A DNA stretch of 64,000 nucleotides from Sabellastarte sp. h YS-2021 (Eukaryota > Annelida > Polychaeta > Sabellida > Sabellidae), in NCBI GenBank assembly GCA_964017235.1, contig OZ024938.1, positions 57,155,816 through 57,219,815 of the forward strand, given 5' to 3'. Each line of letters opens with the position of its first letter. Position 1 is the stretch's first letter. The translations under genes and the position numbers were made by a program. Under the pieces are notes generated by a model, which had not been told where the DNA came from, did no database searches, and saw only the letters and a list, made by a program, of their open reading frames with translations. Of this stretch, positions 17,643 to 63,182 are shown piece after piece.

Positions 17643-20600
17643 AGAAATTTCCTTGTGGACGCGATAACTCAAAAACAAATTAATATTTTTTTTTCAAACT
17701 TGGTACACATGTTAAGGGTGCCCAAAGGAAGATCCCTATTTTAAGGTGACCTTAAACTCCCAGTAAAAAAGAACTTATGGCCACCTTAAGGTCAGAAATT
17801 GCACTTTTGGCCACTTAGAGCCCTGTAGGTCACAAACTATGATGCTCAGCTGGCTGAAATTTTACCTGACAACACATTAATATGTTCTTAGTACATGTGC
17901 CGAAAATCATTACTTTAAGTTGAGGAGAAAATTGTGTTTGAGGCCCATAAATACCCCCACTTAGGGATTTTTTGCTATACTTTTCACATATTTTGCCCTA
18001 TAATTTGGAAGTGATAATTCTGATGAGTCTCAAACTGCGCTAGGTATAACTTTGATATGTAATCCTTGTCTGTAGAAAATTTTAGGGCTGTAGGTTTACC
18101 CAAAGGGGTCGACTTAAGGTCTCAAAAGTGCCCACAGAGACCCAATTTATGCACTTTTTGCCACTTTCAAGCACTGTAGCTTTCAAACTATGTCTCTCAT
18201 CTAAGTTAAATATCATCTGGGAATATATCTATGTGTTTTCTTATATGTGCCCCAACATTTAGGCCTTTAATAGACAGTTAACCTGTGTATCAGGACCATA
18301 AACACCCACCCGAGTGACCCTTATAAGACATTTTTCACATCTTTTTCCCTGTAACTTGGAAATGGTAAGTCTGAGAAGTTTCAAACTGTATTAGATATAT
18401 ATTCTGTGTGTAATCTTAGTATGTAACAGATTTTAAGTCTGAAGCTTTAATTTTGAAGGTCAAATTGAGGTCTCTAAAAGGCTCCCAAAGACCCAATATT
18501 TGGACTTTTTGCTACTTTTAAGCCCTGTGACTGTCAAACTATGTGACTGATAGAGCTCAAATCCTATCTGAGAAGATATTAGTATGTTATTTTTATATGT
18601 GCCAAAAATTAAGGCTTTAAGAAGACATTTAACCTGTGTATGAGGACCATAAATCCCCACCCGAGTGACCATTTTTAGACATTTTTCACATATTTTGCCC
18701 TGTAACTTGGAAATGGTAAGTCTAAGAAGTTTCAAACTGTATTAGATGCATATTCTATGTGTAATCTTAGTATGTGACAAATTTTAAGTCTGAAGCTTTA
18801 ATTTGAAGGCCACATTTAGGTCTCTAGAAGGCCCCATAAAGACCCAGTATTTGGACTTTTTGCCAATTTTAAGGCCTGTGACTGTTAAACTATGTGACTG
18901 ATAGAGCTGAAATCTCATCTGGGAATACATTATTATGTTCTTTTTACATGTGCCAAAAATCAAGGCTTCAAGTAGACATTTAACCTGTGTATGAGGACCT
19001 TAAACACCCACCTGAGTGACCCTTTTAAGACATTTTTCACATATTTTGCTCTGTAACTTGGAAATGGTAAGTCTGAGAAGTTTCAAACTTTATTAGATAC
19101 ATATTCTATGTGTAATCTTAGTATGTAACAAATTTTAAGTCTGAAGCTTTAATTTGAAAGCCACATCGAGATCTCTAAAAGGCCCACAATGACCCAATAT
19201 TTGGACTTTTTACCACCTTTAAGCCCTGTAACTGTTAAACTAAGTGATTGATGGAGCTGAAATCCCATCTGGGAATGCATTATTATGTCCTTTTTACATA
19301 TGCCGAAAATCAAGGTTTTTAGTAGACATTTAACCTGTGTATGAGGGCCATAGACACTCGCCCAAGTGCCTTTTTTGACATTTTTTCCGTATTTTGCCGT
19401 TATTTGGAAATGCTTAGTGTGACAAGTCTTAAACTGTATTATATATAATTTTTGTTTGTTATGTATGTCCCCCAAAAAGTTTCAGATCTGTTGTTTAATT
19501 GCTAAGGTCTCTTTAACAATTGTAAAATGCCCACAGAAACCCAATTTATGGATATTATGCCACTTTAAAGCCCAGTAACTGTCAAACTATGTGGGTTATA
19601 GAGCTGAAATCTTTGAATTTTTAAAAGGAAATGCCTGTCTATTTAAATTTTGAATATTAATAATGTTATGGCTATCTTAGTCTTTTAAGAACTTATTTTT
19701 GTGTGTTATACCTCTGCTTGCTGAGTTTTTCACTTTTTTAAATGAAACTGGTTAAACATATTCAAGTAGGCAAAATGGACACTTTAAGTGAGCTTTAAGT
19801 CCCAATATTAATGAAATTATATCCTTATGTAGTAAAACTAGGGGATTTTTAACCCTCAACTAGCCCAGTTTTATTCAACTTGCCTCAGTTAATTTTGGCA
19901 CAGCTCCTACAGTTATGAACTCATTTCAGTTGATAATCACATACTTAAAATTCTCAATTCTTTTTGTATTTGAGTACCCCTTTTATATAGATTGTTTGTT
20001 TACCATTTATGCTCAACCCACATCCCCCACCCGGATTCCCCCCACCCACCTCTGGGACCTCCAGCTATATTGAGTGACACTAAATAAACAAAGGTATTTA
20101 ATGATATCAGATGAGAAACAAAGAACTCAATGGGGTTGCAGATCTTGTGTAATAGTGAGAGAGGTGTGGAGAAGGGGAGAGGGGTGGGGGTGGGGGTGGG
20201 GGTGGGAGGTGGTGGGCTTCATTACATATAACACAAAGGGGAGTCAGAACTGAGATTGTGTCACATATTTAGGTTGCATATATATGGACCACATATATAG
20301 GTATAGAGGAAATGAATAACTGAAAACAATTTGCAAATTCTAAAAATAATATAATAAAATAATAATATAAATAATTTTTTTTTAAATAATATTTTATTTG
20401 TGAACAAATATAGAAACAGATATGCGCTTTTGGGATTATGAATTTTAGAATGGACATTGAATCATCAATCATTTAAATACTTTGAAGGAAGATTGAAAAA
20501 TATGATGAGTTGAGTTAAAAATAATATTTTATTTGTCAACAAATATAGAAACAGATATGCACTTTTGGGATTATTATTTTAGAATGGACATTCAATCATC

Positions 20601-23600
20601 AATCATTTAAATACTTTGAAAATAGGTTTAGAGTTATCATTGCAGGAAGATTGAAAATATAATTTGAGTTATGTATTCGGCGTCTGGGGATACACCATCT
20701 TCCTTGGGGAGATATAAACAGAGTAGATTGATGTGCTGAAGTTCATATAATAATGGGTAATTATGTTTTAAAAAATTCCCGATCAAAACCTGTGGCGTGA
20801 GTGATGACCTGTCTGGGGATATGTTGGCGCCGAGTTGGCCCAATCTAGTTTTTCAAGGGGGTGGGGGGGTTTCGAACCCCCTAAACTGCCCCCCTGGATT
20901 GGCTAGTGTTCCTATAGTTTGCTGGGTCTTGTAGAACTCTGATGGGCAATTATAATAGCTTTTGTAAGATTCCATGGTCTATGATTTTTTTCTGATCTTG
21001 AAAACTTATGGTTCTTGGATGTTAAGCCCTTTCTTGATGGAAATTGTGTGCATTATTTATACTGGTAATTCCAATTAAGGCAGCTTCAGGTATTACGTGT
21101 AAAGACTGCTCACACAAATCAAATATGTATGCTCCTTTTCACTAATTGTAAAACCCCCTTAAGTAAAATGCCACTATATAGACTATCTGTCTTAAAATAT
21201 ATAAATGTAAAAATAATTATTTGGCCTAGAAAGAGCCTTTGTGTTTAAAAAATTATCTAGGTATTTTTACTATTTTACATTGCTGATCAACCAGAGATAC
21301 TTTTTTAGACCCTTTAATTGTATCCACTGGAAGCATCCGGTGGATACTTTGGTTTAGCGTCCGCTACGCCGCCGCCGCCGCCGCACATAGAGAGATTTTC
21401 GGCGTTAACGCTCTAAGAGGAAAACAACAGCAGCTAGGTTCACCAAATTTGCAGGATATCTTCATTGGGGGGCAAGCTTCTCTGGGAAGGAAAATAGCCT
21501 CATTCTGAAAAACAAGATGGCTGCCACGGGCATTTCTTTAAAAATAATCTACATTTTTCTACTGGCTGTTCCTCATAGGTAGAAGGTCAAATCTCTTCAT
21601 AGGTGATATGTATGACACATATACATGTCCTCTATAACCTTGCACACATTTGACCTTGAAGCTCCTAATTCAAGGTCATCCACGGAGTGCCGAAGTAACC
21701 CACATAGCGGACTTTAAAAGTGCCTATATCTCCCTTATTATTGGTCCTAGAGGTTTGCAATGTGAAGCCAACCTATAGGAAATCATGTGCTGCGAATCTT
21801 CTGATGTGGTCACATTTGACCTTGGGCCCCTCCTTCAAGGTCAAACGAGGACAGCCAAACTTAAAAGTGCTTATAACTCGCTTATTATTGGTCCTAGAGG
21901 TTTGGGATGGTAAACCAACCTATAGGAAATCATGGGCTGGGAATCTTTTGGTGTGGTCGGATTTGACCTTGGGCCCCTCCTTCAAGGTCAAACGAGGATA
22001 GCCAAAGATAAAAGTGCCTATAACTCGCTTATTATTGGTCCTAGAGGTTTGGGACAGTAAACCAACATATAGAAAATCATGGGCTGGGAATCTTGTGGTG
22101 AGGTCGGATTTGACCTTGGGCCCCTCCTTCAAGGTCAAACGATGATAGCCAAAGGTAAAAGTGCCTATAACTCGCTTATTATTGGTCCTAGAGGTTTGGG
22201 ACGGTAAACCAACATATAGAAAATCATGGCCTGGGAATCTTTTGGTGAGGTCGGATTTGACCTTGGGCCCCTCATTCAAGGTCAAACGAGGACAGCCAAA
22301 CTTAAAAGTGCCTATAACTCGCTTATTATTGGTCCTAGAGGTTTGGGACGGTAAACCAACATATTGAAAATCATGGGCTGGGAATCTTTTGGTGAGGTCG
22401 GATTTGACCTTGGGCCCCTCATTCAAGGTCAAATGAGGACAGCCAAATTTAAAAGTGCTTATAACTCGCTTATTATTGGTCCTAGAGGTTTGGGATGGTA
22501 AACCAGCATATAGAAAATCATGGGCTGGGAATCTTCTGGTGTGGTCGGATTTGACCTTGGGCCCCTCATTCAAGGTCAAACGAGGACAGCCAAACTTAAA
22601 AGTGCTTATAACTCGCTTATTATTGGTCCTAGAGGTTTTGGATGGTAAACCAACATATAGAAAATCATAGGCTGGGAATCTTCTGGTGTGGTCGGATTTG
22701 ACCTTAGACCCCTCCTTCAAGGTCAAATGAGGACAGCCAAACCTAAAAGTGCTTATAACTCGCTTATTATTGGTCCTAGAGGTTTGGGATGGTAAACCAG
22801 CATATAGAAAATCATGGGCTGGGAATCTTCTGGTGTGGTCGGATTTGACCTTGGGCCCCTCCTTCAAGGTCAAATGAGGATAGGCAAAGGTAAAAGTGCT
22901 TATAACTTGCTTATTATTGGTCCTAGAGGTTTGGGATGGCAAACCAACCTATAGGAAATCATGGGCTGGGAATCTTCTGGTATTGTCGGATTTGACCTTG
23001 GGCCCCTCCCTCAAGGTCAAACGAGGACAGCCAAACTTAAAAGTGCTTATAACTCGCTTATTATTGGTCCTGGAGGTTTGGGATGGTAAACCAACATATA
23101 GAAAATCATGGCCTGGGAATCTTCTGGTGTGGTCGGATTTGACCTTGGGCCCCTCCTTCAAGGTCAAACGAGGATAGCCAAAGGTAAAAGTGCCTATAAC
23201 TCGCTTATTATTGGTCGTAGAGGTTTGGGATGGTAAACCAACATATAGAAAATCATGGGCTGGGAATCTTCTGGTGAGGTCGGATTTGACCTTGGGCCCC
23301 TCATTCAAGGTCAAACGAGGACAGCCAAACTTAAAAGTGCTTATAACTCGCTTATTATTGGTCCTGGAGGTTTGGGATGGTAAACCAGCATATAGACAAT
23401 CATGGCCTGAGAATCTTCTGGTGTTGTCGGATTTGACCTTGGGCCCCTCCTTCAAGGTCAAACGAGGACAGCCAAAGGTAAAAGTGCCTATAACTCGCTT
23501 ATTATTGGTCGTAGAGGTTTTGGATGGTAAACCAACATATAGAAAATCATGGGCTGGGAATCTTCTGGTGAGGTCGGATTTGACCTTGGGCCCCTCCTTC

Positions 23601-24267
23601 AAGGTCAAACGAGGGCAGCCAATCTTAAAAGTGCTTATAACTCACTTATTATTGGTCCTACATGTTTGGGATGGTAAACCAGCATATAGAAAATCATGGG
23701 CTGGGAATCTTCTGGTGTGGTCGGATTTGACCTTGGGCCCCACGGTCAAGGTCAATTGAGGACAGCCAAACAAAAAGTGCTTATAACTCTCTTATTATTG
23801 GTCCTAGATGTTTGGGATGGTAAACCAACATATAGGAAATCATGCACTGGGAATCTTCTGGTGTGGTCGGATTTGACCTTGGGCCCCCCCTTCAAGGTCA
23901 AATGAGGATAGCCAAACTTAAAAGTGCTTATAACTCGCTTGTTATTGGTACTAGAGGTTTTGGTGCATTGTCTTTACAGTGGATACAATTTGCATTGGTT
24001 CTCCGATGCGCTAGGTCTAGTTTCATCTTGACCACACTTTGGATATATGACACTAGCTGTATTTATGACAAAAGTGTTGCATTCAATTTTTCCAGAGACC
24101 AACCATCGTTACACCTGTAAACGAATTATGGAGAGGGCAGAAAAGTCACACCCTTGGTTTGGCATTGAGCAGGAGTACACACTACTCGGGTTGGATGGAC
24201 ATCCATATGGTTGGCCCAAAAATGGCTTCCCCGGACCACAGGGTGAGTAAAACGAGTGACTCAAAAT

Positions 24268-37787: not shown

Positions 37788-40700
37788 AGAAATTTCCTTG
37801 TGGACGCGATAACTCAAAAACAAATTAATATTTTTTTTTCAAACTTGGTACACATGTTAAGGGTGCCCAAAGGAAGATCCCTATTTTAAGGTGACCTTAA
37901 ACTCCCAGTAAAAAAGAACTTATGGCCACCTTAAGGTCAGAAATTGGACTTTTGGCCACTTAGAGCCCTGTAGGTCACAAACTATGATGCTCAGCTGGCT
38001 GAAATTTTACCTGACAACACATTAATATGTTCTTAGTACATGTGCCGAAAATCACGACTTTAAGTTGAGGAGAAAATTGTGTTTGAGGCCCATAAATACC
38101 CCCACTTGGGGATTTTTTGCTATACTTTTCACATATTTTGCCCTATAATTTGGAAGTGGTAATTCTGATGAGTCTCAAACTGCGCTAGGTATAACTTTGA
38201 TATGTAATCCTTGTCTGTAGAAAATTTTAGGGCTGTAGGTTTACCCAAAGGGGTCGACTTAAGGTCTCAAAAGTGCCCACAGAGACCCAATTTATGCACT
38301 TTTTGCCACTTTCAAGCACTGTAGCTTTCAAACTGTGTCTCTCATCTAAGTTAAATATCATCTGGGAATATATCTATGTGTTTTCTTATATGTGCCCCAA
38401 CATTTAGGCCTTTAATAGAGAGTTAACCTGTGTATCAGGACCATAAACACCCACCCGAGTGACCCTTATAAGACATTTTTCACATCTTTTTCCCTGTAAC
38501 TTGGAAATGGTAAGTCTGAGAAGTTTCAAACTGTATTAGATATATATTCTGTGTGTAATCTTAGTATGTAACAGATTTTAAGTCTGAAGCTTTAATTTTG
38601 AAGGTCAAATTGAGGTCTCTAAAAGGCTCCCAAAGACCCAATATTTGGACTTTTTGCTACTTTTAAGCCCTGTGACTGTCAAACTATGTGACTGATAGAG
38701 CTCAAATCCTATCTGGGAAGATATTAGTATGTTATTTATATATGTGCCAAAAATTAAGGCTTTAAGAAGACATTTAACCTGTGTATGAGGACCATAAATC
38801 CCCACCCGAGTGACCATTTTTAGACATTTTTCACATATTTTTCCCTGTAACTTGGAAATGGTAAGTCTAAGAAGTTTCAAACTGTATTAGATGCATATTC
38901 TATGTGTAATCTTAGTATGTGACAAATTTTAAGTCTGAAGCTTTAATTTGAAGGCCACATTTAGGTCTCTAGAAGGCCCCATAAAGACCCAGTATTTGGA
39001 CTTTTTGCCAATTTTAAGGCCTGTGACTGTTAAACTATGTGACTGATAGAGCTGAAATCTCATCTGGGAATACATTATTATGTTCTTTTTACATGTACCA
39101 AAAATCAAGGCTTCAAGTAGACATTTCACCTGTGTATGAGGACCTTAAACACCCACCTGAGTGACCCTTTTAAGACATTTTTCACATATTTTGCTCTGTA
39201 ACTTGGAAATGGTAAGTCTGAGAAGTTTCAAACTTTATTAGATACATATTCTATGTGTAATCTTAGTATGTAACAAATTTTAAGTCTGAAGCTTTAATTT
39301 GAAAGCCACATCGAGATCTCTAAAAGGCCCACAGAGACCCAATATTTGGACTTTTTACCACCTTTAAGCCCTGTGACTGTTAAACTATGTGATTGATGGA
39401 GCTGAAATCCCATCTGGGAATGCATTATTATGTCCTTTTTACATATGCCGAAAATCAAGGTTTTTAGTAGACATTTAACCTGTGTATGAGGGCCATAGAC
39501 ACTCGCCCAAGTGCCTTTTTGGACATTTTTTCCGTATTTTGCCCTGTTATTTGGAAATGCTTAGTGTGACAAGTCTTAAACTGTATTATATATAATTTTT
39601 GTTTGTTATGTATGTCCCCCAAAACGTTTCAGATCTGTTGTTTAATTGCTAAGGTCTCTTTAACAATTGTAAAATGCCCACAGAAACCCAATTTATGGAC
39701 ATTATGCCACTTTAAAGCCCAGTAACTGTCAAACTATGTGGGTTATAGAGCTGAAATCTTTGAATTTTTAAAAGGAAATGCCTGTCTATTTAAATTTTGA
39801 ATATTAATAATGTTATGGCTATCTTAGTCTTTTAAGAACTTATTTTTGTGTGTTATACCTCTGCTTGCTGAGTTTTTAACTTTTTAAAATGAAACTGGTT
39901 AAACATATTCAAGTAGACAAAATGGACACTTTAAGTGAGCTTTAAGTCCCAATATTAATGAAATTATATCCTTATGTAGTAAAACTAGGGGATTTTTAAC
40001 CCTCAACTAGCCCAGTTTTATTCAACTTGCCTCAGTTAATTTTGACACAGCTCCTACAGTTATGAACTCATTTCAGTTGATAATCACATACTTAAAATTC
40101 TCAATTTTTTTTGTATTTGAGTACCCCTTTTATATAGATTGTTTGTTTACCATTTATGCATCCCCCACCCGGATTCCCCCCACCCACCTCTGGGACCTCC
40201 AGCTATATTGAGTGACACTAAATAAACAAAGGTATTTAATGATATCAGATGAGAAACAAAGAACTCAATGGGGTTGCAGATCTTGTGTAATAGTGAGAGA
40301 GGTGTGGAGAAGGGGAGAGGGGTGGGGGGGGGGGGAGGTGGTGGGCTTCATTACATATAACACAAAGGGGAGTCAGAACTGAGATTGTGTCACATATTTA
40401 GGTTGCATATATATGGACCACATATATAGGTATAGAGGAAATGAATAACTGAAAACAATTTGCAAATTCTAAAAATAATATAATAAAATAATAATATACA
40501 TAATTTTTTTTTAAATAATATTTTATTTGTGAACAAATATAGAAACAGATATGCGCTTTTGGGATTATGAATTTTAGAATGGACATTGAATCATCAATCA
40601 TTTAAATACTTTGAAGGAAGATTGAAAAGTATGATGAGTTGAGTTTGAAGGAAGATTGAAAAGTATGATGAGTTGAGTTAAAAATAATATTTTATTTGTC

Positions 40701-42949: not shown

Positions 42950-45900
42950 AAACTAGATTGGGCCAACTCGGCGCCAACATATCCCCAGACAGGTCATCAC
43001 TCACGCCACAGGTTTTGATCGGGAATTTTTTAAAACATAATTACCCATTATTATATGAACTTCAGCACATCAATCTACTCTGTTTATATCTCCCCAAGGA
43101 AGATGGTGTATCCCCAGACGCCGAATACATAACTCAAATTATATTTTCAATCTTCCTGCAATGATAACTCTAAACCTATTTTCAAAGTATTTAAATGATT
43201 GATGATTGAATGTCCATTCTAAAATAATAATCCCAAAAGAGCATATCTGTTTCTATATTTATTTGTTGACAAATAAAATATTATTTTTAACTCAACTCAT
43301 CATATTTTTCAATCTTCCTTCAAAGTATTTAAATGATTGATGATTCAATGTCCATTCTAAAATTCATAATCCCAAAAGCGCATATCTGTTTCTATATTTG
43401 TTCACAAATAAAATATTATTTAAAAAAAAATTATTTATATTATTATTTTATTATATTATTTTTAGAATTTGCAAATTGTTTTCAGTTATTCATTTCCTCT
43501 ATACCTATATATGTGGTCCATATATATGCAACCTAAATATGTGACACAATCTCAGTTCTGACTCCCCTTTGTGTTATATGTAATGAAGCCCACCACCTCC
43601 CACCCCCACCCCTCTCCCCTTCTCCACACCTCTCTCACTATTACACAAGATCTGCAACCCCATTGAGTTCTTTGTTTCTCATCTGATATCATTAAATACC
43701 TTTGTTTATTTAGTGTCACTCAATATAACTGGAGGTCCCAGAGGTGGGTGGGGGGAATCCGGGTGGGGGATGTGGGTTGAGCATAAATGGTAAACAAACA
43801 ATCTATATAAAAGGGGTACTCAAATACAAAAAGAATTGAGAATTTTAAGTATGTGATTATCAACTGAAATGAGTTCATAACTGTAGGAGCTGTGCCAAAA
43901 TTAACTGAGGCAAGTTGAATAAAACTGGGCTAGTTGAGGGTTAAAAATCCCCTAGTTTTACTACATAAGGATATAATTTCATTAATATTGGGACTTAAAG
44001 CTCACTTAAAGTGTCCATTTTGTCTATGCAAAGATTTCAGCTCTATAACCCACATAGTTTGACAGTTACTGGGCTTTAAAGTGGCATAATATCCATAAAT
44101 TGGGTTTCTGTGGGCATTTTACAATTGTTAAAGAGACCTTAGCAATTAAACTACAGATCTGAAACTTTTTGGGGGGACATACATAACAAACAAAAATCAT
44201 ATATAATACAGTTTAAGACTTGTCACACTAAGCATTTCCAAATAACAGGGCAAAATACGGAAAAAATGTCAAAAAAGGCACTTGGGCGAGTGTCTATGGC
44301 CCTCATACACAGGTTAAATGTCTACTAAAAACCTTGATTTTCGGCATATGTAAAAAGGACATAATAATGCATTCCCAGATGGGATTTCAGCTCCATCAAT
44401 CACATAGTTTAACAGTTACAGGGCTTAAAGGTGGTAAAAAGTCCAAATATTGGGTCATTGTGGGCCTTTTAGAGATCTCGATGTGGCTTTCAAATTAAAG
44501 CTTCAGACTTAAAATTTGTTACATACTAAGATTACACATAGAATATGTATCTAATAAAGTTTGAAACTTCTCAGACTTACCATTTCCAAGTTACAGAGCA
44601 AAATATGTGAAAAATGTCTTAAAAGGGTCACTCAGGTGGGTGTTAAAGGTCCTCATACACAGGTTAAATGTCTACTTGAAGCCTTGATTTTTGGCACATG
44701 TAAAAAGAACATAATAATGTATTCCCAGATGAGATTTCAGCTCTATCAGTCACATAGTTTAACAGTCACAGGCCTTAAAATTGGCAAAAAGTCCAAATAC
44801 TGGGTCTTTATGGGGCCTTCTAGAGACCTAAATGTGGCCTTCAAATTAAAGCTTCAGACTTAAAATTTGTCACATACTAAGATTACACATAGAATATGCA
44901 TCTAATACAGTTTGAAACTTCTTAGACTTACCATTTCCAAGTTACAGGGAAAAATATGTGAAAAATGTCTAAAAATGGTCACTCGGGTGGGGATTTATGG
45001 TCCTCATACACAGGTTAAATGTCTTCTTAAAGCCTTAATTTTTGGCACATATAAAAATAACATACTAATATCTTCTCAGATAGGATTTGAGCTCTATCAG
45101 TCACATAGTTTGACAGTCACAGGGCTTAAAAGTAGCAAAAAGTCCAAATATTGGGTCTTTGGGAGCCTTTTCGAGACCTCAATTTGACCTTCAAAATTAA
45201 AGCTTCAGACTTAAAATCTGTTACATACTAAGATTACACACAGAATATATATCTAATACAGTTTGAAACTTCTCAGACTTACCATTTCCAAGTTACAGGG
45301 AAAAAGATGTGAAAAATGTCTTATAAGGGTCACTCGGGTGGGTGTTTATGGTCCTGATACACAGGTTAACTGTCTATTAAAGGCCTAAATGTTGGGGCAC
45401 ATATAAGAAAACACATAGATATATTCCCAGATGATATTTAACTTAGATGAGAGACATAGTTTGAAAGCTACAGTGCTTGAAAGTGGCAAAAAGTGCATAA
45501 ATTGGGTCTCTGTGGGCACTTTTGAGACCTTAAGTCGACCCCTTTGGGTAAACCTACAGCCCTAAAATTTTCTACAGACAAGGATTACATATCAAAGTTA
45601 TACCTAGCGCAGTTTGAGACTCATCAGAATTATCACTTCCAAATTATAGGGCAAAATATGTGTAAAGTATAGCAAAAAATCCCTAAGTGGGGGTATTTAT
45701 GGGCCTCAAACACAATTTTCTCCTCAACTTAAAGTCATGATTTTCGGCACATGTACTAAGAACATATTAATGTGTTGTCAGGTAAAATTTCAGCCAGCTG
45801 AACATCATAGTTTGTGACCTACAGGGCTCTAAGTGGCCAAAAGTGCAATTTCTGACCTTAAGGTGGCCATAAGTTCTTTTTTACTGGGAGTTTAAGGTCA

Positions 45901-52425: not shown

Positions 52426-52593
52426 TCAACTGGAAGTATAGGCAATGATTTTCTTTGGAGGGTTCTTAATACTTGGAGGTCCGTACAGCGTATCAGCTCG
52501 CTTCAAGAATGATTTCACCATTGTCCTTACGATTTCATCAAAGAACACAGTTGCCAATTGAGAATGAAGGGAAGAACGAAACTCAAAACCAAC
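52426..52593 (-). CDS. COQ10: COQ10 terminal exon (55 codons + stop)
   Basis: Acceptor TATCTTTCAG|GTT; encodes [20 protein letters not shown], then [20 protein letters not shown], ending KKIIAYTSS with TGA at 52426-52428. F-E-F-R-S-x-LHSQLAT-x-FFDE is diagnostic of COQ10. The tail after YGPPS is lineage-specific. Confidence 0.93.
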
Positions 52594-55500
52594 CTGAAAG
52601 ATAACAAGAATATCCTATTAAAAACAGAAAAATTGACTTATTAAAAATCAATGTTTATACGAAAATATTTTTGTAATAATTCTCTCTCTGTTTTATTATT
52701 ATAGGGGAAAAATAGCAATCACTTGGTGGACTTCATCCAGAAATATAGTCCTATTGGCAGTTTAGTACCACAAAGGTTCTAAGGTGCTAATCAGACTATA
52801 ATTCTGCATAATGTCCAACATGTTAAATATACTTATCTGATCTGTGAATTGTCACAAAATTATCATTCTATATATTGAAATAAATAAACTGATGTAGTTT
52901 CAGCATCGAACTACAATTATATCAATATAAAAATCAGATCTCTTTCCTTGCAATAAAATGCACGTATTCCAAATTCGCAGTCAACTTGAAAGAGGAAGTG
53001 GATGGCTACGTCACTACTGGGGTCACCTCGATGCCAAGGCATCTCGCCAGTATTATGCGTCCATTTTTCTTGGACGTTGGCTGGATGCCTACGGCCTCCC
53101 AAGTTAGCATTCAGTTCCACATGGTAAGCTTGTAGCTTATAAAAGCTACATTTAAGTAATTAAAATTTTCAAGTTTATACGAAAATATTTGTGCAATAAT
53201 TCTCTCTCTGTTTTATTATTATAGGGGAAAAATAGCAATCACTTGGTGGACTTCATCCAGAAATATAGTCCTATTGGCAGTTTAGTACCACAAAGGCAAA
53301 GCATGAGTGGTTCTAAGGTGCTAATCAATAGTAATCAGACTATAATTCTGCATGATGTCCAATCAGTGATGGATCATTACTATTCAAATATGAAACATGT
53401 TGAATTAAGTATGAATTCATTCTTAATGACACTTTTCATGTGGGCGATAATTGGGCTGGCATTCCAACAATTTTCACCTCTCAACCAATTAAAAATAAAG
53501 AATTGGATGGAACGAGTAGATTTGTATTCAAACACTCTTTTCCTAAAGTCTAGTCTTTTAACACCAGTCTACTCTTATTGGTATAAAAAATGGCCAACTG
53601 AAGGAAGTCATTTATTTTCATGTAAAAAGTGTATGAAATCACTAATTCAGGTACAGTGCATAAAATTAACACCTACCCTCCCTCCCCACCTCTGTCTCCT
53701 CCCCCCCCCCCCCCCCCTCGTTTAAGACTGGTTAAATCCTGTATTAAATTAAATTTAAAAGACAAGACAAAGTTTTCATAATATTTTTAAGCTCTATTTT
53801 TTCATTAAACAATATATTACTGAAGTAATCAGACAAAATTAACAAAGATTATAATATTCTATAATCTACAAAGATTATAATATTCTATAATATAAGATTA
53901 TAACTTTATAAGCCTTCTCCAAGGAAGAACTACTTACAAAAGAATACAAATAGATTATCATGATGATAAACATGACAGAAAATGTGGCTAATACAAAAGA
54001 AGGTCAGTGGTTATTACAGGTAAATCTTGCAACTTGTTAAAGATCTGTTAAAACATATTAATGTATTTGTTTCATAGGAAATGTAAAAAGACAAGGATAA
54101 ACTATCATGAGGAAAATTTCTTTTAAAACTTTCTTGCACATTATAGACATATTTCAATATACAAAAAGAAACCCTTATTCCAATGAAGCTATATGTCTTG
54201 ATGATTTTCTGTCAGGTTGAATCACGAGATGTTTTTTACTATGTAACTGATGTTTCTCTTTTAGGAACAGAACTCACGAGATATATCATAATTAAGTACA
54301 GCAAAAAAACATACATGCACAACCAACCATGCCTGTACAAAGAATTCATGTGTCCCAGTATACAAGGCATGAAATCACATTTACATATATACATGTAATC
54401 CCCTGATCCACTTTTGGGAGTTGCAGTAAGATGTTGGGATTTTTAAACTCGGGGACTGGGGATGAAGGGTTGAGGCTGCTACCACGGATCTTGTTGAAAA
54501 TGGACAGGAAAAATGTCAAAAATTATGTGATTTGCCGCGAGTGAAATGATAAGTCATATGACCAAAAAGATTGGCCTATGACCTACTCCCAAACTGGGAT
54601 GATTAATGAAGATCAAACAGGTCAGCCAATGCACCTCTAGTGCAGTAATAAGGGGATCCAGTGCATATTATTTCTCTTAGGACCAGATCACTCCTCATAT
54701 TTGTACAAAAGAGTGGACAAAATTATCCATAGCAGTAAACTAATAAATTGTAACACCATAATGGTAATTTGTAATGCGCACTGAATAATCGTAACTGCTT
54801 TATGACCAAAGACAATGGTTGTGAATACTCGTGACAAACCTGCTAACACATACATATAGGCTGAATATTCCTTAGGTGCAACTACGATCATCCCTATTAC
54901 AACTGTAAAGATAAGTGGAACAGCCAATAAGATTTTGCTCTGGATCTCCATAATCTGGGCAGTTGGGAGGCAAACTTGTGACATGTAAACAGGAGTATAA
55001 GTTATTTTCTTTTCTGTAAAGAATTCTGGAAAAGTAAGTTCAACATGTGTTAGTGAGTTGTTCCCTGAATTATTATTTTCAAAGATAATTAATGCACCAA
55101 AATGTTGAATGTTTACAAGTTAACTCCCACAAAACCAGAAATAAATGGTTAAACTTAACCATGAATTCCAATAAGCAGGTTTAATATGAAATGAAACGGA
55201 CTCTCTGAGGTCCTGATATCTACTTCTAAACTTAGAAGTGAATTTTATATATCACAATTATTTAGAAGGAATTTACTGAAATTTAAAAAAAATCTACTTT
55301 TAAAGCTGTTTGGCGTCAATTCATTTGGGCAGTCTTTTTTAAAATTTGATATCTTACTGGTACCAAATGTAGTAGGTTGATTTTAAAATATTTTTAATAT
55401 TTTCAGTTTATTTATGATTAACACCTTTGTACCAATGGGTAGTATTCAACAGAACCGGAGAGCTCTTGGCATTGCTGAGAATTTAAGACGGTTTTTGTTG

Positions 55501-58500
55501 CATCATACTTCTATAGACTTAATCTATGTACTAACAGATGGTAAGGTGCGAACACACAAAAAAAAGGCTGTTGCAAAATTACTTAGCCATTTGACAAACA
55601 TAGGCTGACAGGACAGTTATCCACAGAGATGCCGGATAACTGAGGAATATTAAGGAAGAAAAGTGTATACCAAGATACCGAAACCTGTTCGAATAGACAA
55701 TTCTTGCATCATGTTTGTAAGCTTTGGGATGGGCATTTACATGGGCAATACCAAGATTTCCCATTGAGAACTTAAAAAAAATTGTGCAACACATTGTCTA
55801 TGTAATTGACTGAATGGAAAGTCATGTAAGCAATTTTTGGATTATGTAAGTATGATCAGTTCAGCCAATGAAGTTGGTGACCCAGCAAAGTCTGTCACCC
55901 ACCAGGCAATCTGACAAGTAATTATGGGAGGTACTACAGATATACTGAAAATGGCCTAACTGGCAAATGCCTGGAGCAAGACAATGATCCAGATCACCAC
56001 CAAAAATCAATTCCTCTGTCCCTTGCTCCATTGTCAACATTTCTTGAAAGTTTCATCAAAATCCATCTGTAAGTTTTAGTGTTACTTTACCAGCAGGCAG
56101 ATAAACAATCAAACCAATGTCGTCAACACCAAATCCTCCTTGATGGAGATATAACAAATGGAATGAGTGTTTTGAATAATAATTATGAAGAAGTTTTAAA
56201 CTTGTCATAAAACCTGAAATTAGTACTAGGTATTTGGTTCATAAGTAACAGAGGCTTCTCTTTAAGTTTTCACCCAAAATTTAATTTGCCTAACCATGTT
56301 CAAATAAAAACTTAAAATTTTGAACATGTGACTTTAAAAAGTATGCCCTTTTTCTATTAACAGGGAGGAATACAAGGAGAAAACACAGAAAGGTCAAAAT
56401 GGATACTCCAGAAAGTAATAAACACAAAAGTGACTTGCTTTTCTCAAATAGACATTTATCGCAAAAGCACCAATTAACTAACTACCTTTTTTTACTACAT
56501 TTCATTTCCTCTATTTTTTACAGCAATTAATCTACTTTCAGATTTTAATTGGTTATGAAACTTAAAATGTTTCCAAAGGTTATTTGGTATGTTATTAGAT
56601 TTTGTTTTGTATTTGGAGATACAAAACTTTCAGATAATTCAACTGACACAAAGTAGATAAATTTTTTTGATAATTTCTTTAGTCATAAAGTTCAAATAAG
56701 AATGATTATTAAATATATTCCATTTTTTTACTCCCTGCATGAATCAACTGGATAAACAAGTAACAATTATTCAATTTTAAAAATATTTTTTTCACACAAA
56801 GATTCTAAAAATTTAAACATTTATTTTCTAAAGTTCAAAAAGGTAACTGTACACCCATATAATTGTTAAGGTTAGTTGTTCTCGAGGTGTAAGAACATAT
56901 TAAAACAACTTTGTAAAATAACTTTGAAATGTCCTAGAATATTTGAATAAAATTAGTAAATGACTGAAACTATTGGGGATTATTAATACCTTCTCCAACT
57001 TGTATTAATTTATTGGAATCGGAATGTCAGCATATGGCATGCACCTTCATTTAAAATCACAACTTTTTATATCTAGTCTCAAATTAGATTTTTTTTCATC
57101 ATATTCTTCAGCTTTAATAGGGCTTGGTGACATGCCATACATTTGTCACATAGACCATAGATTGGTTAAGGGTGTGGGGACCATTATAGGCATGTCTATG
57201 CATTAGAGATTTTCTGAAATACATCCAGGCAAATTGTGTGATAAAGTACACTAAATTTCAGTCATTTTGTGAAATCCCGGAAATATTTTGAAGTTTTGTA
57301 TTTTATGGTTCACTAAAATGTATAAGTGTTAATATAAAAAAAAAGAGTATTCTGTATTTTTTGCAAGAAGAGTTACCGTTATAAAAGACTATGTTGTTCC
57401 CCAGTTGCCAAGAACACTATGTCCTCATATAATGTACATAAAGATTATATGGGTGCATATTTGCATGTTATTGTTTCATAAAAAAGGTAATCAAAAAGTT
57501 TTTGTAAAATGCAATTTTAATGACAGTCTATTATATTGTGGTTATATCTAAAAATTAAGAATGGTTTCTAGTTTTATTAAATCATCTATGAAGTTGAAAC
57601 TTTCTTCCTTATAGTTTATAAATTTTGACAAGTTATTTGACATGTGCACAATAGAAATGGGTACAACTCGTCAGGGTTATTGTACTGTGCAAATGCAAAA
57701 GTATTTTTAAAAGTTTACATAATACTCTATTTTTTTTCGAATAAATTTTTGATGCAAAAACGCTCTATATTTTTAAAAGTTTACATAATACTCTATTTTT
57801 TTTCGAATAAATTTTTGATGCAAAAACGCTCTTGCTGTAAAGTTTACAATGCTAAAACTATACTCAGGAAAAAAAGCCTTGAAGTTCAAGGGAAATGAAA
57901 AGGCAAAAGCCCTTAATAAGTTGAAGGTTTCTTTCAACATTACCTGATTTTGGCTGAGGGCCCCTGTCCACAGGTATCATTTAATGTGTTTTTGGCTGAT
58001 TTTTTTATCAACTTCCCTTTCTCTTGAGGGCTATATGCCCCTGCCCCCCCCCCTCACACACGCCACCCCCTCCAAATTGATCAACATGATTGGTTCTGCA
58101 TCTACTGTTAAACTATATGCAACAGCACTTACAACTGGAAGGATTGCATGCACAACAATATAGTATAATTGACTGACGAACAACATACAAATGATATATG
58201 ATGAATTGACAATACAAAAGCAGGCAGGAGTAACAGCACAAAATTTCAACTAAAAGCTTGAATTAAAAATAGTCTTATACAAAGGAATATAAACAGGGTC
58301 AACTACCATATTACAGTTGCAACATAGATATCCAAGGAATTCAAAGCGTCTTAAATTCGTTTTTCATTGTCCAATACATTTCCAATTCTATGCAGTGAAA
58401 GAACTAAACTTATATAGAAGATTAAAATAATATTTACAAACATAACTTTACTGGTTGCATTATAGTTTAATTGATATGAACCGAAATAGCTGGAATACAG

Positions 58501-61500
58501 ATAGTTAAAACAAGGTCACATAATCTCTTGTAACAAGTCATAGTGACATGGGTTACACCGTAACACGTATGAGTTGTAAAATTATAACTTTAAAATATCT
58601 TATCCTTTATATACCTTGTCAATCAAGTTATTTCAAACAAGAGGTGTTGACAACCATTCAATCAAAATATTTTGGATATGAAAATTTAAATGGTAACGTA
58701 AATCATGTGACTTTATTTCAACTTAATATTTTTAGCTATTTCTGTTGAAATATATATCTTTAGCTAAATGAACTTACACTGAAATCAAGTGTACAAGTTT
58801 GTGGGTTATCCGCTATTCCTGGGCCAAATCTCCATAAATTCACTAAATGGGTAAATAAGTGACCATCTGTACTCTCAGCCTACAGGACAGAAGAAAATAA
58901 ATGCTTGTAAGTATAAGTGAAAATAACAAATATGCCGAAAACTGTGCCCACAATGAAAGAAATTAGTATATCAAACAGGCAACTTGTGTTCAACTTCACA
59001 TTTGACCTGGAATTAACCTTGACAATGTCAATATATAGGTGGAGCCATGTATTTTCACCAAATTATACACCAGTCGCTGAAAGGAAAAATAACAGGTGTT
59101 TAAAACTGTGTCCTTGATGAATGATATCTCAAAACCTGAAGGGCAAATTTAGACTTGACCTTGACATTATCTCGAAAATTTCACTGAAAAGTAGAGCTGT
59201 GTATAATCACACAAATGTAACAAGCTTAACATTCATACTTTCCTTGAAATCTTGAGTTTGAAGAGTGTGTTAAGAAAAGAGGAACAACGCAAGGCATTAT
59301 ACAAAGGTCAATTGATATATACCAATACCAGCAAGTTATTATCCCCAGCAGTATATATTACACTTGTGACTCACATATTAAACATCAAGCATTAGTTCAC
59401 TTTTTGAGAATTTCTACTGTCACTAAGCATTGATATTCAATTTTCAGAGAAAAGAAATTTGTAGATGTCATTGGAAATGTTGCAACTGCATCTACCCAAG
59501 GAAAATGACTATCAGTAAAAACAAATATAACAACCCTTGGACCCCTTTAAGTAAATCTCTGTAAAGTAATATTCATTTCTTAAACATGAATTATCAGGTC
59601 CCAACAGCTCTGTTCCACTGTTGGACGTCTACCCACCAGCCTGAGGGTTTTTTACTGCTCACTTTACGAAGGTAATCATGGTGATTGCATGATCACAGCG
59701 ATGGTAGACGCTCCTCCCAGTTTTGAAACATAATTGAAAAAAAAATTTGTGAGTGAACATTTTTGAACATCCTGAGTAATTTTTCATCTTTTCAGTTGTA
59801 AGGAAGTTACAATTAATCCTTTGGGTGCTATGACTAACCATTAGGGTCTTAACACTCATTGTTTAGATCCTGTAATGTATCTTGAAAAAAGGAACTGACT
59901 TATCCTGTTGCAGGGGAAGGTTACCTATAGCCGTCCCCTGATTACTCCACAAGTGAGATTTGTGGTCGGTGTAACTAGACATCTATAATAAATCATGACA
60001 GTCAGAAGTAGGTTATAAGGCCAATCTTTTCAGCTGTACTACCAAGTAAGTTGATCTTCAGTCTTCCCAGCCTCCAAAGTGTCCGAAACAGCTTAGCTAG
60101 GATTATCACCAACACAACCAGATATTCACAAATACCTCCAGTACTTAAGAGTTTGCACTAGTTGGTAATCCAACAACGTTCAGTGTTCCAAACAGCTACA
60201 ATATTCTATAAGTTCCTCCAGAGTCGTTATCCTAAATATTTCAGTCCCAGTAAAAGTTTTTATAATATTAAGAACAGCTAGGTGAATGGTAAAGTTCTTG
60301 AGGTGCCACAGTTTATTCCATGTGTTCATAAGTCAATAAAGCAATTTGGTTTTAGTTTTACTTATATGATGTTCCCAAGGTATGGAATGAGTTGCTGGAT
60401 GACATCCGGTCTGTCACATCTCTTTTATCTTTCAGGAACTTCCTGACAGGAAGAAACTGAAGCTTAACTCTTCACAAAAGGCCTCGTACCCACCTTAAGT
60501 TCATCATATTCTTCTGATTGTATCTGCGGTGCGGACCCCCCTTTTACGTCTCTGGACTATGAATTTTTTGGACTTCTTGTTTCCTGGTTACAGTCTGTTT
60601 TTTAATGGAGATTAAGTGCTACAAAAGTCATATTAATTAGTTAGTCAGTTAGTTTAACAGGATCAGATACAGCAACACCCAGAGCTTAAAATGAGCCAGG
60701 TCTTATAATAAGTAGCAACAATGGAACAGCAGCATTAGAGAGTCTCTGCAATTCACCTTTACCCTTTTTCAGAAATTCCTCTTTGAGAAGAAGTATTCTT
60801 CTAATTAATTTTATCTGACTTATAAGGGTTCAAAGGTTGTACAATCTGAGATTGGAGAAAAATACATAGAAATCATTCTGTAATCGTCTTTTCGTGTGGG
60901 AAGAAAAATCATCTGAATAGCAATGAGCAACTGTAATAAACCCCTGTTTAATAAACTATGAACATTAAGCACAATTAGAACTACATATTATGACAGCTGT
61001 ACATAAGCACATGCAGTGTATAATAACAAGGAAAATAGCATCTGAACAACAATAACCAAACATACAGTAGATCTTCTTTCATCTGCCCCTCTATTAATCA
61101 AATATTCCTATTTATGAGCTCATTTCAATGCTTTACAAGTTTGTATTTTAATATTGTTTTATCTTGTTAAAATACCCCTTCTATTTTATGAGGTTTCTAT
61201 TTTCTTTTTGTTCCCAGACTGCATATTTATTAGCCTTTATGTACAACTTACAAAGATCACCAGAGCGAGGTGGGGGGTTATAGAAATCAGGACAAAGGGC
61301 CAGTGGACAAAATGCTGGTAAAAATTGTAAGGGAAGACAAAAGAGCATGCCCATCTTTGGGGAAGGGTGGACAAAATGCTGGTCTTATCAAAACACATTA
61401 TATACTTTTATTCTTATCTCTCAGAATAATTATATGACATTGAAACATACTTTTACACATTTAATCTTAAAACAATGGCAATTATATAAGATAATTATGT

Positions 61501-63182
61501 AAGCTACTGGTGAAATGCTGCATACAAACATACTTCTACACACTGAAACTTAAAACATATAAAATAGTTACGAAAAGAAAGGCCGTTACAGTAGCACTAA
61601 AATATAATCATACGTCAATTATAGCAAAACTGTCTTTTCATCAGAATAAAATTGACATTTTAGCCTTATATATGCCTAATTCCATTGAAAAAGTCTCCAA
61701 CGAAAATGGTTTAACTCCATCACTGATCACACAAGTTGAACAAATTTTGTGGGAGGTCTTGCACATCTTCTCTGCCTTTTTGGAGGGGGTTGTCCATGGG
61801 CTGTTTGATGTAACTGGGTAATTACTAGAGCTGCATCATCTCTCAAGTGGTTAATGAGCCTCTAAACTGATTATTATGTCTAATTGCCTTATTTTTCCAC
61901 CATTGTTTTAAGCTTCGATGTGCAAAGGCATGTTTCAATGTCTTATAATTATCCCAAGAGATAAGAATAAAAGAATATAAAGCGTTTTGTTAAGACCGAC
62001 ATCTTGTCCTTCCCCCTTCAAAAATGGCTAGTATTGTGTCCTCGCTTGCAATTTTGACCAGCGTTTTGTCTACTGGCATTTTGTCCACCAGCTTTTTGTC
62101 TGTGCACCAAGGTTATATAACCACAACATATTTTGATTGTGGCTAGTAGCCACAATCTTATAGGAATACCAGCAAGAGTCAGAAAAAAGAAAGAATTGAT
62201 TGCATAGGCCTTTTTTTTTTTGGGGGGGGGCTTTAGATCATGCAATTACAACAAATATTTCTTGAAAATGTTTGCAATGATTAACCATTCAAACTGTCAA
62301 CTATTTATTTTCCTGGTGAAGTAGAACATGGCCACAACCATAACAGAATAATCTATATTTTACATGTGACTGAATCACTGAATACATCAAATGTTATTTT
62401 GAACTGTGTGTAATAGCTTCGAATATAATTCGGGAAAATGTTTACAAAATATCTGTTGAAAATTACTGCATTTGCTCTATACACTAAACACTAATTGGCT
62501 ATTTCAGAACATTTTACAGTAAATGTCAAAACAAAAAGGATACTTTTATGCAATGGTTCAAAAAGTTCAGTCCCACCATTACATTAACCAATTCTTTCAA
62601 ATGGGTTTGTAAAAGTAGATTTATATGAGGCACTATTGTATTATTCAAAGCATGTAAAAATACTGTTTTAAAAGATCTATTCAATGAAATCAATGCAAGT
62701 AGCTGAAACTAATATATCTATATTATACAGTGTCATGTCTTCTAGGTGGGTGATAAAGCAGAAAATATAGATCCATGTACAATAGTTTTGAAGCTTTCTA
62801 GCAGGGTACCACACTGAAAAGAAACCCCACAGAACAACTATTGTCCACACTGCTGTTATTTTTTAATATATCTCGCATAAAAAGAACAATATTAGCCTTT
62901 TTATTTTTACTTTTTTTTACTGCTTTATACCAAAACATTGATATGCTTTCTACTCTTTTATCAGAATTTTCTCTATGTTTGGAAAATTATTCTGTAATAT
63001 TAAATTTTCAATGTGGTCAGATAATAGAGGTGTCCAATGTGGTCATAGCATCTATGCACTATGGATTATGTACGACTTACAGAATAGTCTAGAGTACATG
63101 TATTAGGGTACTCCTGTAAACCTGGACTAAACCTCCAAATAGTCAACAAGTGGTTGAAAAGTCTTCCATCAGTACACTCGGA
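52426..63182 (-). CDS. COQ10: COQ10-like coenzyme Q-binding protein (3' part of gene)
   Basis: START/polyketide-cyclase family protein of the inner mitochondrial membrane side that binds coenzyme Q and supports respiration. The recognised exons encode [25 protein letters not shown] and then [20 protein letters not shown], the C-terminal half of the family. Order on the - strand: 63081-63182 or 58778-58879 (both 34 codons, phase 0), then 52426-52593. The N-terminal exons (mitochondrial presequence and first half of the START domain) were not found up to 64000 and must lie beyond the window. Confidence 0.9.
52653..52830 (+). repeat. Broken duplicate of the 53173-53370 segment
   Basis: GTTTATACGAAAATATTT through CAATCACTTGGTGGACTTCA to TAATTCTGCAT.ATGTCCAA matches 53173 onward at a constant 520-bp offset. 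It then loses about 14 bp (CAAAGCATGAGTGG region) and about 10 bp, destroying the reading frame open in the other copy. Confidence 0.9.
52940..53122 (+). CDS. Unassigned open segment, possible exon
   Basis: GC-richer than its surroundings. A frame opening after an AG (AATCAG|ATC) reads ..[20 protein letters not shown] to QVSIQFHM and ends at ATG|GTAAGC, phase 0. But an overlapping ATG ORF (52958-53107; ..[20 protein letters not shown]) and an antisense frame (52917-53120) are also open, so the coding strand is undecided. No family recognised. Confidence 0.25.
53114..53175 (+). repeat. 62-bp dispersed repeat, copy 2
   Basis: Nearly identical to 179-241, ending where the 53173 duplicated segment starts. 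Confidence 0.75.
53225..53650 (+). CDS. Putative 142-codon exon, unknown protein
   Basis: A strong acceptor (CTCTCTCTGTTTTATTATTATAG ends at 53224) opens [20 protein letters not shown], runs 142 codons without a stop and ends at ATTCAG|GTACAG. It contains a hydrophobic stretch [15 protein letters not shown] (about residues 82-96) that could be a membrane segment, and a CKKC near the end. The frame can join the 52940-53122 segment across a ~100-nt intron. No homologue recognised. It lies antisense in the COQ10 intron. Confidence 0.35.
54688..54984 (-). CDS. 98-codon ORF with several hydrophobic segments
   Basis: Starts [20 protein letters not shown] and has hydrophobic stretches at about 18-36, 43-60 and 66-92 ([20 protein letters not shown]), ending LLYKYEE. 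This looks like a small multi-pass membrane protein or an exon of one, but AT-rich DNA yields such frames by chance. No family recognised. Confidence 0.2.
   Translation of the reverse strand: MSQVCLPTAQIMEIQSKILLAVPLIFTVVIGMIVVAPKEYSAYMYVLAGLSRVFTTIVFGHKAVTIIQCALQITIMVLQFISLLLWIILSTLLYKYEE
55407..55540 (+). CDS. Putative 44-codon exon
   Basis: Acceptor AATATTTTCAG|T and donor GATG|GTAAGG bound a phase 1-1 segment reading [20 protein letters not shown], then [19 protein letters not shown]. The composition is protein-like, but no homologue is recognised and the phase does not match the exon at 53225-53650. Confidence 0.3.
55900..56160 (-). repeat. Old repeat related to ~24870-25110
   Basis: CAAATCCTCCTTGATGGAGAT, TTGAAAGTTTCATCAAAATC and GATCACCACCAAAAATC appear as a diverged reverse copy of the segment after GS coding exon 4 (CCTCCCTCAAGGAGG, ATTTTGATGAAATTTTCAGG, GATGCACATCACC). 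An interspersed family of unknown type. Confidence 0.45.
56161..57700. other. COQ10 intron, no recognised features
   Basis: AT-rich. One short open frame at 57024-57206 resembles nothing known. Confidence 0.45.
57702..57831 (+). repeat. 66-bp tandem duplication, identical
   Basis: TATTTTTAAAAGTTTACATA to TTTTGATGCAAAAACGCTC is present twice in direct tandem with no difference seen, so the duplication is recent. Confidence 0.93.
57900..58777. other. COQ10 intron up to alternative exon B
   Basis: C-rich tract at about 58040-58070. Otherwise AT-rich with nothing recognised. Confidence 0.4.
58778..58879 (-). CDS. COQ10: COQ10 alternative exon B (34 codons)
   Basis: Acceptor TTCTGTCCTGTAG|GCT and donor AGT|GTAAGT; encodes [20 protein letters not shown] then [14 protein letters not shown]. 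It is the same protein segment as exon A, with about 20 of 34 residues identical, same length and same phase. It lacks the family's usual Cys after E and has Gly for Ser in WRFSPG, but has no stop or frame break. Confidence 0.88.
60340..60655 (+). pseudogene. LINE 3' end (non-LTR retrotransposon remnant)
   Basis: One frame reads [20 protein letters not shown] then RNFLTGRN and a stop, the conserved C-terminal tail of non-LTR ORF2 proteins (W-N-x-LP..IR..S...F+..L). The residues just before it (FSFTYMMF) are in another frame, so a frameshift is present. The tail ends in TTAG/TCAG short repeats (about 60637-60655), as in many LINEs. 5'-truncated; the upstream limit is unclear. Confidence 0.65.
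61285..62110. mobile_element. Inverted-repeat element (~0.8 kb)
   Basis: Left arm 61285-61390 (CCAGTGGACAAAATGCTGGT, GGGGAAGGGTGGACAAAAT) is the diverged reverse complement of 61990-62110 (TTTTGTCCACCAGCTTTTTG, GACATCTTGTCCTTCCCCC). Each arm itself contains repeated GGACAAAATGCTGG units. A 103-codon ORF (61510-61821) lies between the arms; no homology is recognised. Confidence 0.65.
62111..63080. other. COQ10 intron between inverted-repeat element and exon A
   Basis: AT-rich, with a T/G homopolymer run at about 62211-62230. Nothing coding recognised. Confidence 0.4.
63081..63182 (-). CDS. COQ10: COQ10 alternative exon A (34 codons)
   Basis: Acceptor ATCATTTTCAG|TCC and donor TCT|GTAAGT; encodes [20 protein letters not shown] then [14 protein letters not shown]. 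This version is closer to the family consensus (CTDG.LFNHL..IWRFSPG) and is probably the ancestral exon. Confidence 0.9.

Follow-up and report, generated by a model that had tools for sequence, protein, structure and literature searches.

The COQ10 gene of the annelid Sabellastarte sp. carries two homologous versions of one exon, here called A and B, and their anatomy and constraint suggest, with a probability of roughly 0.78, that they are used in a mutually exclusive manner. One COQ10 gene would then give rise to two START-domain quinone carriers, one using A and the other B, and the choice of exon would swap strands 5 and 6, together with the beginning of strand 7, in the sheet that forms the lipid tunnel. 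From the exon's place in that sheet, the A and B forms should differ in their preference for ligand or partner. The parts that we infer are the spliced use of both exons, their mutual exclusion and the difference in binding; the exon pair itself can be read directly from the window, which is the whole stretch of 64,000 nucleotides that was analysed (C19:57155816-57219815, in a genome assembly of 1,785,957,881 bases and 647 contigs).

The exons and introns of the gene are listed in Table 1. The initial annotation had described two interchangeable-looking COQ10 segments on the minus strand, and its coordinates, 102-nt lengths, phases and splice sites all proved accurate. Acceptors end in CAG at exon A and at the last exon and in TAG at exon B; both donors are of the GTAAGT type (GTAAGTCG for exon A, GTAAGTTC for exon B). 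Joining is in frame on both sides for A and B alike, including the clean junction proposed earlier from either exon to the last exon, which begins at 52593 on the minus strand. An intron of 10,157 nt separates exon A from the upstream exon. The transit-peptide exon was not found in a limited search (six donor patterns, an Arg-codon junction, 70 kb), and the single candidate, a poor one, was rejected.

Table 1. Exons and introns of COQ10 and the paired exons of COQ2 in Sabellastarte sp. Positions given without a contig are those of the window; COQ2 exon lengths come from a reading of their splice sites.
Feature	Position	Strand	Length	Remarks
COQ10 further upstream exon	C19:57230038-57230133		96 nt	Outside window; encodes ...KKLEYSERRILG
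COQ10 upstream partner exon	C19:57229155-57229347		193 nt	Outside window; phase 0 end, ...VSRPYLVR
COQ10 exon A (canonical version)	63081-63182	-	102 nt	Phase 0-0; single genome copy found
COQ10 intron A-B	58880-63080	-	4,201 nt	No further COQ10 exon detected inside
COQ10 exon B (alternative version)	58778-58879	-	102 nt	Phase 0-0; open frame; single genome copy found
COQ10 intron B-last exon	52594-58777	-	6,184 nt	Second last exon not detected inside
COQ10 last coding exon	52426-52593	-		Common to both forms; stop codon TGA at 52428-52426
COQ2 e-type exon	C1:112669128-112669259 (matched codons)		131 nt	GLTLNWG...YSHQ; L and S at diagnostic positions
COQ2 a-type exon	C1:112700276-112700410		134 nt	GLTFNWG...YAHQ; F and A at diagnostic positions

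When the whole genome was searched at the protein level with exon A plus the last exon, four places matched: the last exon itself, exons A and B and, weakly, a site on contig C2. A query of upstream sequence plus B matched five: the upstream exon, B, A and weak sites on contigs C7 and C8. The weak C2, C7 and C8 matches (E = 0.23, 1.2 and 1.7, respectively) were rejected as COQ10: their identity is 27-29%, and two of the three, including that on C2, carry stops. A tblastn search with the four exons found no other convincing copy in 144 kb, made up of the window and the 80 kb upstream of it, where the best extra match had E = 0.031 over 23 residues. Within the sensitivity of the searches and the completeness of the assembly, we found a single COQ10 locus in 1.786 Gb. 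Because the upstream exon, A, B and the last exon each have a single copy in the genome, B does not appear to come from a second or decayed gene; the initial annotation had named a separate decayed paralogue as the origin of B that would speak against its interpretation, and these searches, together with the constraint on A and B, rule against it. Vertebrates similarly have two forms of the same START protein, COQ10A and COQ10B, but there each form has its own gene, whereas in Sabellastarte a single gene holds both versions of the exon.

Exons A and B are homologous neighbours that match in length (102 and 102 nt) and phase (0-0) and have intact splice sites, the features by which paired exons are recognized. 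They agree at 64 of 102 nucleotides and, as had been estimated, at 20 of 34 amino acids. Aligned without gaps, they score 126 with BLOSUM62, whereas no more than 34 was reached in 200,000 shuffles. Bases agree at 22, 28 and 14 of the 34 first, second and third codon positions, respectively, and only six of the 20 residues common to A and B are encoded by identical codons. In this comparison of two sequences and 34 codons only, the proportion of synonymous differences, pS, is 0.80 (saturated), with pN 0.26 and dN 0.32, as expected under purifying selection on both copies. Neutral decay of B was simulated, roughly, in 20,000 runs with A as the ancestor and equal base changes: an open frame with identity of at least 20/34 survived in 10.5% of runs at 0.3 substitutions per site, in 0.17% at 0.5, and in none at 0.75, 1.0 or 1.5. 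The flanking introns of A and B have no clear homology over 300 bases on each side when compared without gaps in 20-base bins (2-8 bases agreeing per bin). Saturated synonymous sites, a low dN and dissimilar flanking introns indicate that the duplication is old and that both copies appear constrained; the earlier description of an old duplication in which neither copy has decayed, with open frames and intact splice sites, thus holds.

Both the A form and the B form belong to the Polyketide_cyc/START domain family (PF03364), with full, continuous matches of 79.3 and 76.3 bits, respectively, above the curated cut-off of 23.4 bits; either covers protein residues 12-139 and profile positions 2-125 of 126. 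With neither exon, the match is truncated at profile position 63 and scores 49.8 bits. With A and B in series, the match splits into two stretches, the best of which spans profile positions 2-98, and, as both stretches count, the whole-protein score of 83.4 bits slightly exceeds that of A or B alone. Only the single-exon forms, then, give one continuous START match, which supports the initial interpretation of the pair as mutually exclusive exons; a transcript holding both A and B would encode a disrupted START domain, a point against their being joined routinely.

Along the full domain, both forms also resemble CC1736 of Caulobacter (PDB 1T17), a member of the COQ10/RatA START-like family (query residues 8-148 of 165; E = 6.7e-8 for the A form and a slightly better 5e-9 for the B form). 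CC1736 belongs by sequence to the same family as the A and B forms but, unlike them, is bacterial, has one form and is without exons. The exon was placed on a structure model of a bacterial homologue near-identical to CC1736, not of a spliced COQ10 form, built with 37 of 80 kept loci (337 confirmed); it has a mean pLDDT of 88.5, and Foldseek ranks 1T17 first among its matches (E = 1.2e-17). On this model, the exon corresponds to residues 70-103, which span strands 5 (72-79) and 6 (82-94) of the START fold and reach into the beginning of strand 7 (97-108). The two isoforms had been expected to differ in the WRFSPG region of that fold; this is too narrow a description, as the swap takes in strands 5, 6 and the start of 7.

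Many of the 14 differences between A and B in these 34 residues are conservative. Taking a human COQ10B segment as reference, A matches at 27 of 34 residues and B at 21, and eight residues are changed in B only against two in A only, weak evidence that B is the more changed copy. Nine residues between 70 and 103 are invariant in the 37 bacterial homologues (V75, L77, G80, P81, F82, L85, W89, F91 and F102), a narrow measure of conservation because nearly all of these sequences are from Caulobacterales. Seven of the nine align to the exon, with G80 and P81 falling in an alignment gap, and at these seven the bacterial residue is kept at six in B and at five in A, which has Y for F102; at V75, A, B and the human segment all have G. 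Residue 14 of the exon (N87) is N in B and in 36 of the 37 bacterial homologues and T in A and the human segment; judged by strand alternation, it would lie on the face shared by L85, W89 and F91, which we take as the tunnel side.

Exclusion, if it happens, is not enforced by the exon structure. Both exons are multiples of three, all splice sites are GT-AG, and the 4.2-kb A-B intron is too long for steric hindrance; with neither frame, nor a short intron, nor mixed splice-site types to impose it, a regulator would have to act. Regulatory proteins can impose exclusion, so a mechanism visible in the sequence is not required. The competing intron pairings that the initial annotation recommended looking for do occur in the sense that two exceed shuffled sequence, for which the best of eight rough shuffles reached -31.5 kcal/mol. 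Both join the A-B intron to the intron between B and the last exon: one of -42.1 kcal/mol near 60028 and 54577 (-52.2 in longer pieces), and a second, C/G-rich one of -33.0 kcal/mol near 61789 and 58076 (-43.1 in longer pieces). The other two pairs of COQ10 introns gave no duplex stronger than their own shuffles. The arms of the -42.1 kcal/mol duplex occur at no fewer than four and 13 places in the genome, their own copy included, and this pairing was set aside because both arms are dispersed repeats; we take neither pairing as evidence.

A comparable pair is known in COQ2 (coq-2), whose mutually exclusive exons 6a and 6e are described in nematodes, flatworms, annelids and molluscs (Tan et al. 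2020; PMC7434440). The likeness to COQ10 A and B lies in near-equal lengths, the same phase, a gene of the coenzyme Q pathway and a remodelled protein core. COQ2, however, is a prenyltransferase and selects the quinone precursor, whereas COQ10 is a quinone-binding carrier. RNA and exon deletions in C. elegans support the COQ2 pair (PMC7434440), whereas the COQ10 pair is known from sequence alone. As reported by Tan et al., the e exon is marked by Phe-to-Leu and Ala-to-Ser changes and was present, among the animals examined there, only in rhodoquinone makers (helminths, annelids and molluscs), and C. elegans without it had essentially no detectable rhodoquinone (PMC7434440). Support has been reported for the first diagnostic residue, while the second was found to be less diagnostic (PMC12403961). 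In Sabellastarte, COQ2 is located at 112.65-112.71 Mb of contig C1 and has exons of both types, 31 kb apart with the e exon first, that match the same part of the protein; the e exon has Leu and Ser at the diagnostic positions. The a and e exons are identical at 26 of 45 alignment columns, close to the 20 of 34 for COQ10 A and B. Since both types are present, this annelid is a probable rhodoquinone maker.

Among the exons found of COQ4, COQ5, COQ7, NDUFS2 and NDUFS7, parts of some of these genes not being found, none is duplicated. An exon pair was present in two of the seven quinone genes probed, but COQ10 was the starting point and COQ2 was already known; without them the count is 0/5, and there is no enrichment. 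Overlapping COQ4 and COQ7 matches were rejected as duplicate exons because the matches extend beyond the exon ends (checked for COQ7, on its own strand), and weak matches on contig C2 at 24-32% identity were taken as other methyltransferases rather than further COQ5.

Two other readings of exon B deny the exchange itself. We consider it very improbable that B is a relic out of use or belongs to a second gene that has decayed: the excess of residues changed in B only does make it the more divergent copy, but no other COQ10 exon copy was found in the genome or in the surrounding 144 kb, divergence is saturated at synonymous sites and low at nonsynonymous ones, and B has no stop and keeps its splice sites. 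It is also unlikely that some transcripts carry B as a cassette in addition to A, yielding a protein 34 residues longer. Such a product would be in frame and nothing in the sequence forbids it; against it stand the division of the Pfam match into two stretches, the roughly two and a half extra strands that a tandem A+B protein would have to accommodate in its sheet, and the constraint on B at positions homologous to those of A, which fits replacement and not insertion.

Replacement of A by B is compatible with more than one function. The two forms may be tissue- or stage-specific carriers of one and the same quinone that differ in affinity, partner or stability, a reading to which we give even odds. 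The facts of the exon pair fit it too, as do the many conservative differences, and the exons found of the five other genes, none of them duplicated, do not point to quinone proteins being remodelled in general; it leaves unused the co-occurrence with the COQ2 e exon, although that is a single species and maybe chance. More tentatively, mutually exclusive use could be extended to a switch between ubiquinone and rhodoquinone, in which the A form would carry ubiquinone and the B form rhodoquinone, in parallel with COQ2 a/e splicing; exon choice would then set both the synthesis and the delivery of the anaerobic quinone. The occurrence of both COQ2 exon types and the COQ10 pair in one species, the similar divergence of the two pairs and the binding of the quinone head group by COQ10 (PMC11541779) are consistent with such a switch, but we regard it as doubtful. 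The binding residues named for S. pombe Coq10, F68 and P70 (PMC4807763), probably have their equivalents in the upstream exon (GFPP motif), outside the swapped exon; the second COQ2 position is the less diagnostic one; bacterial homologues mostly share the N that B has at residue 14, among them the Caulobacter group, whose protein reportedly binds coenzyme Q, so B need not be a rhodoquinone form; and the five other quinone-related genes have no exon pair among the exons found.

Paired alternative exons are a known kind of feature, here in a gene for which none is reported in the open-access literature that we searched. Among the matches listed, judged partly by titles and the starts of abstracts, we found no report of paired COQ10 exons or of a ubiquinone/rhodoquinone carrier; as a search term, COQ10 also picks up the compound coenzyme Q10. 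In Tan et al. (PMC7434440), the term coq-10 is absent from the main text, as are coq-10 and COQ10 from that of PMC8659336. The search covered open-access papers, so gene models of related animals may already show both COQ10 forms. In the accounts of two-quinone animals on which we drew, the switch described is the COQ2 synthesis step, and how each quinone is directed later is left unexplained. A second exon switch, in a quinone carrier, would make the direction of quinones after synthesis directly testable and would provide a second sequence marker of rhodoquinone use. In its boldest form, which we likewise regard as doubtful, the idea would extend to rhodoquinone-making invertebrates, whose anaerobic quinone would then have its own carrier from the same COQ10 gene. 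Even without a link to rhodoquinone, a COQ10 gene with paired exons would be a natural swap of part of the tunnel wall, suited to finding the basis of ligand choice.

The window also contains a glutamine synthetase gene on the plus strand (11362-36103), with six exon matches to a human sequence that overlap in the query by at most a few residues, except at exon ends. Inside this gene is a 147-nt tandem repeat of 15.3 copies (21714-23960), with an open frame of 342 codons on the minus strand. Three tandem arrays of a 351-nt unit are present at 17981-19445, 38126-39592 and 44200-45530, the third apparently inverted. Adjoining the last exon of COQ10, a 124-nt segment occurs twice, 520 nt apart and 98% identical (52653-52776 and 53173-53296), and the bases neighbouring it are repeated too.
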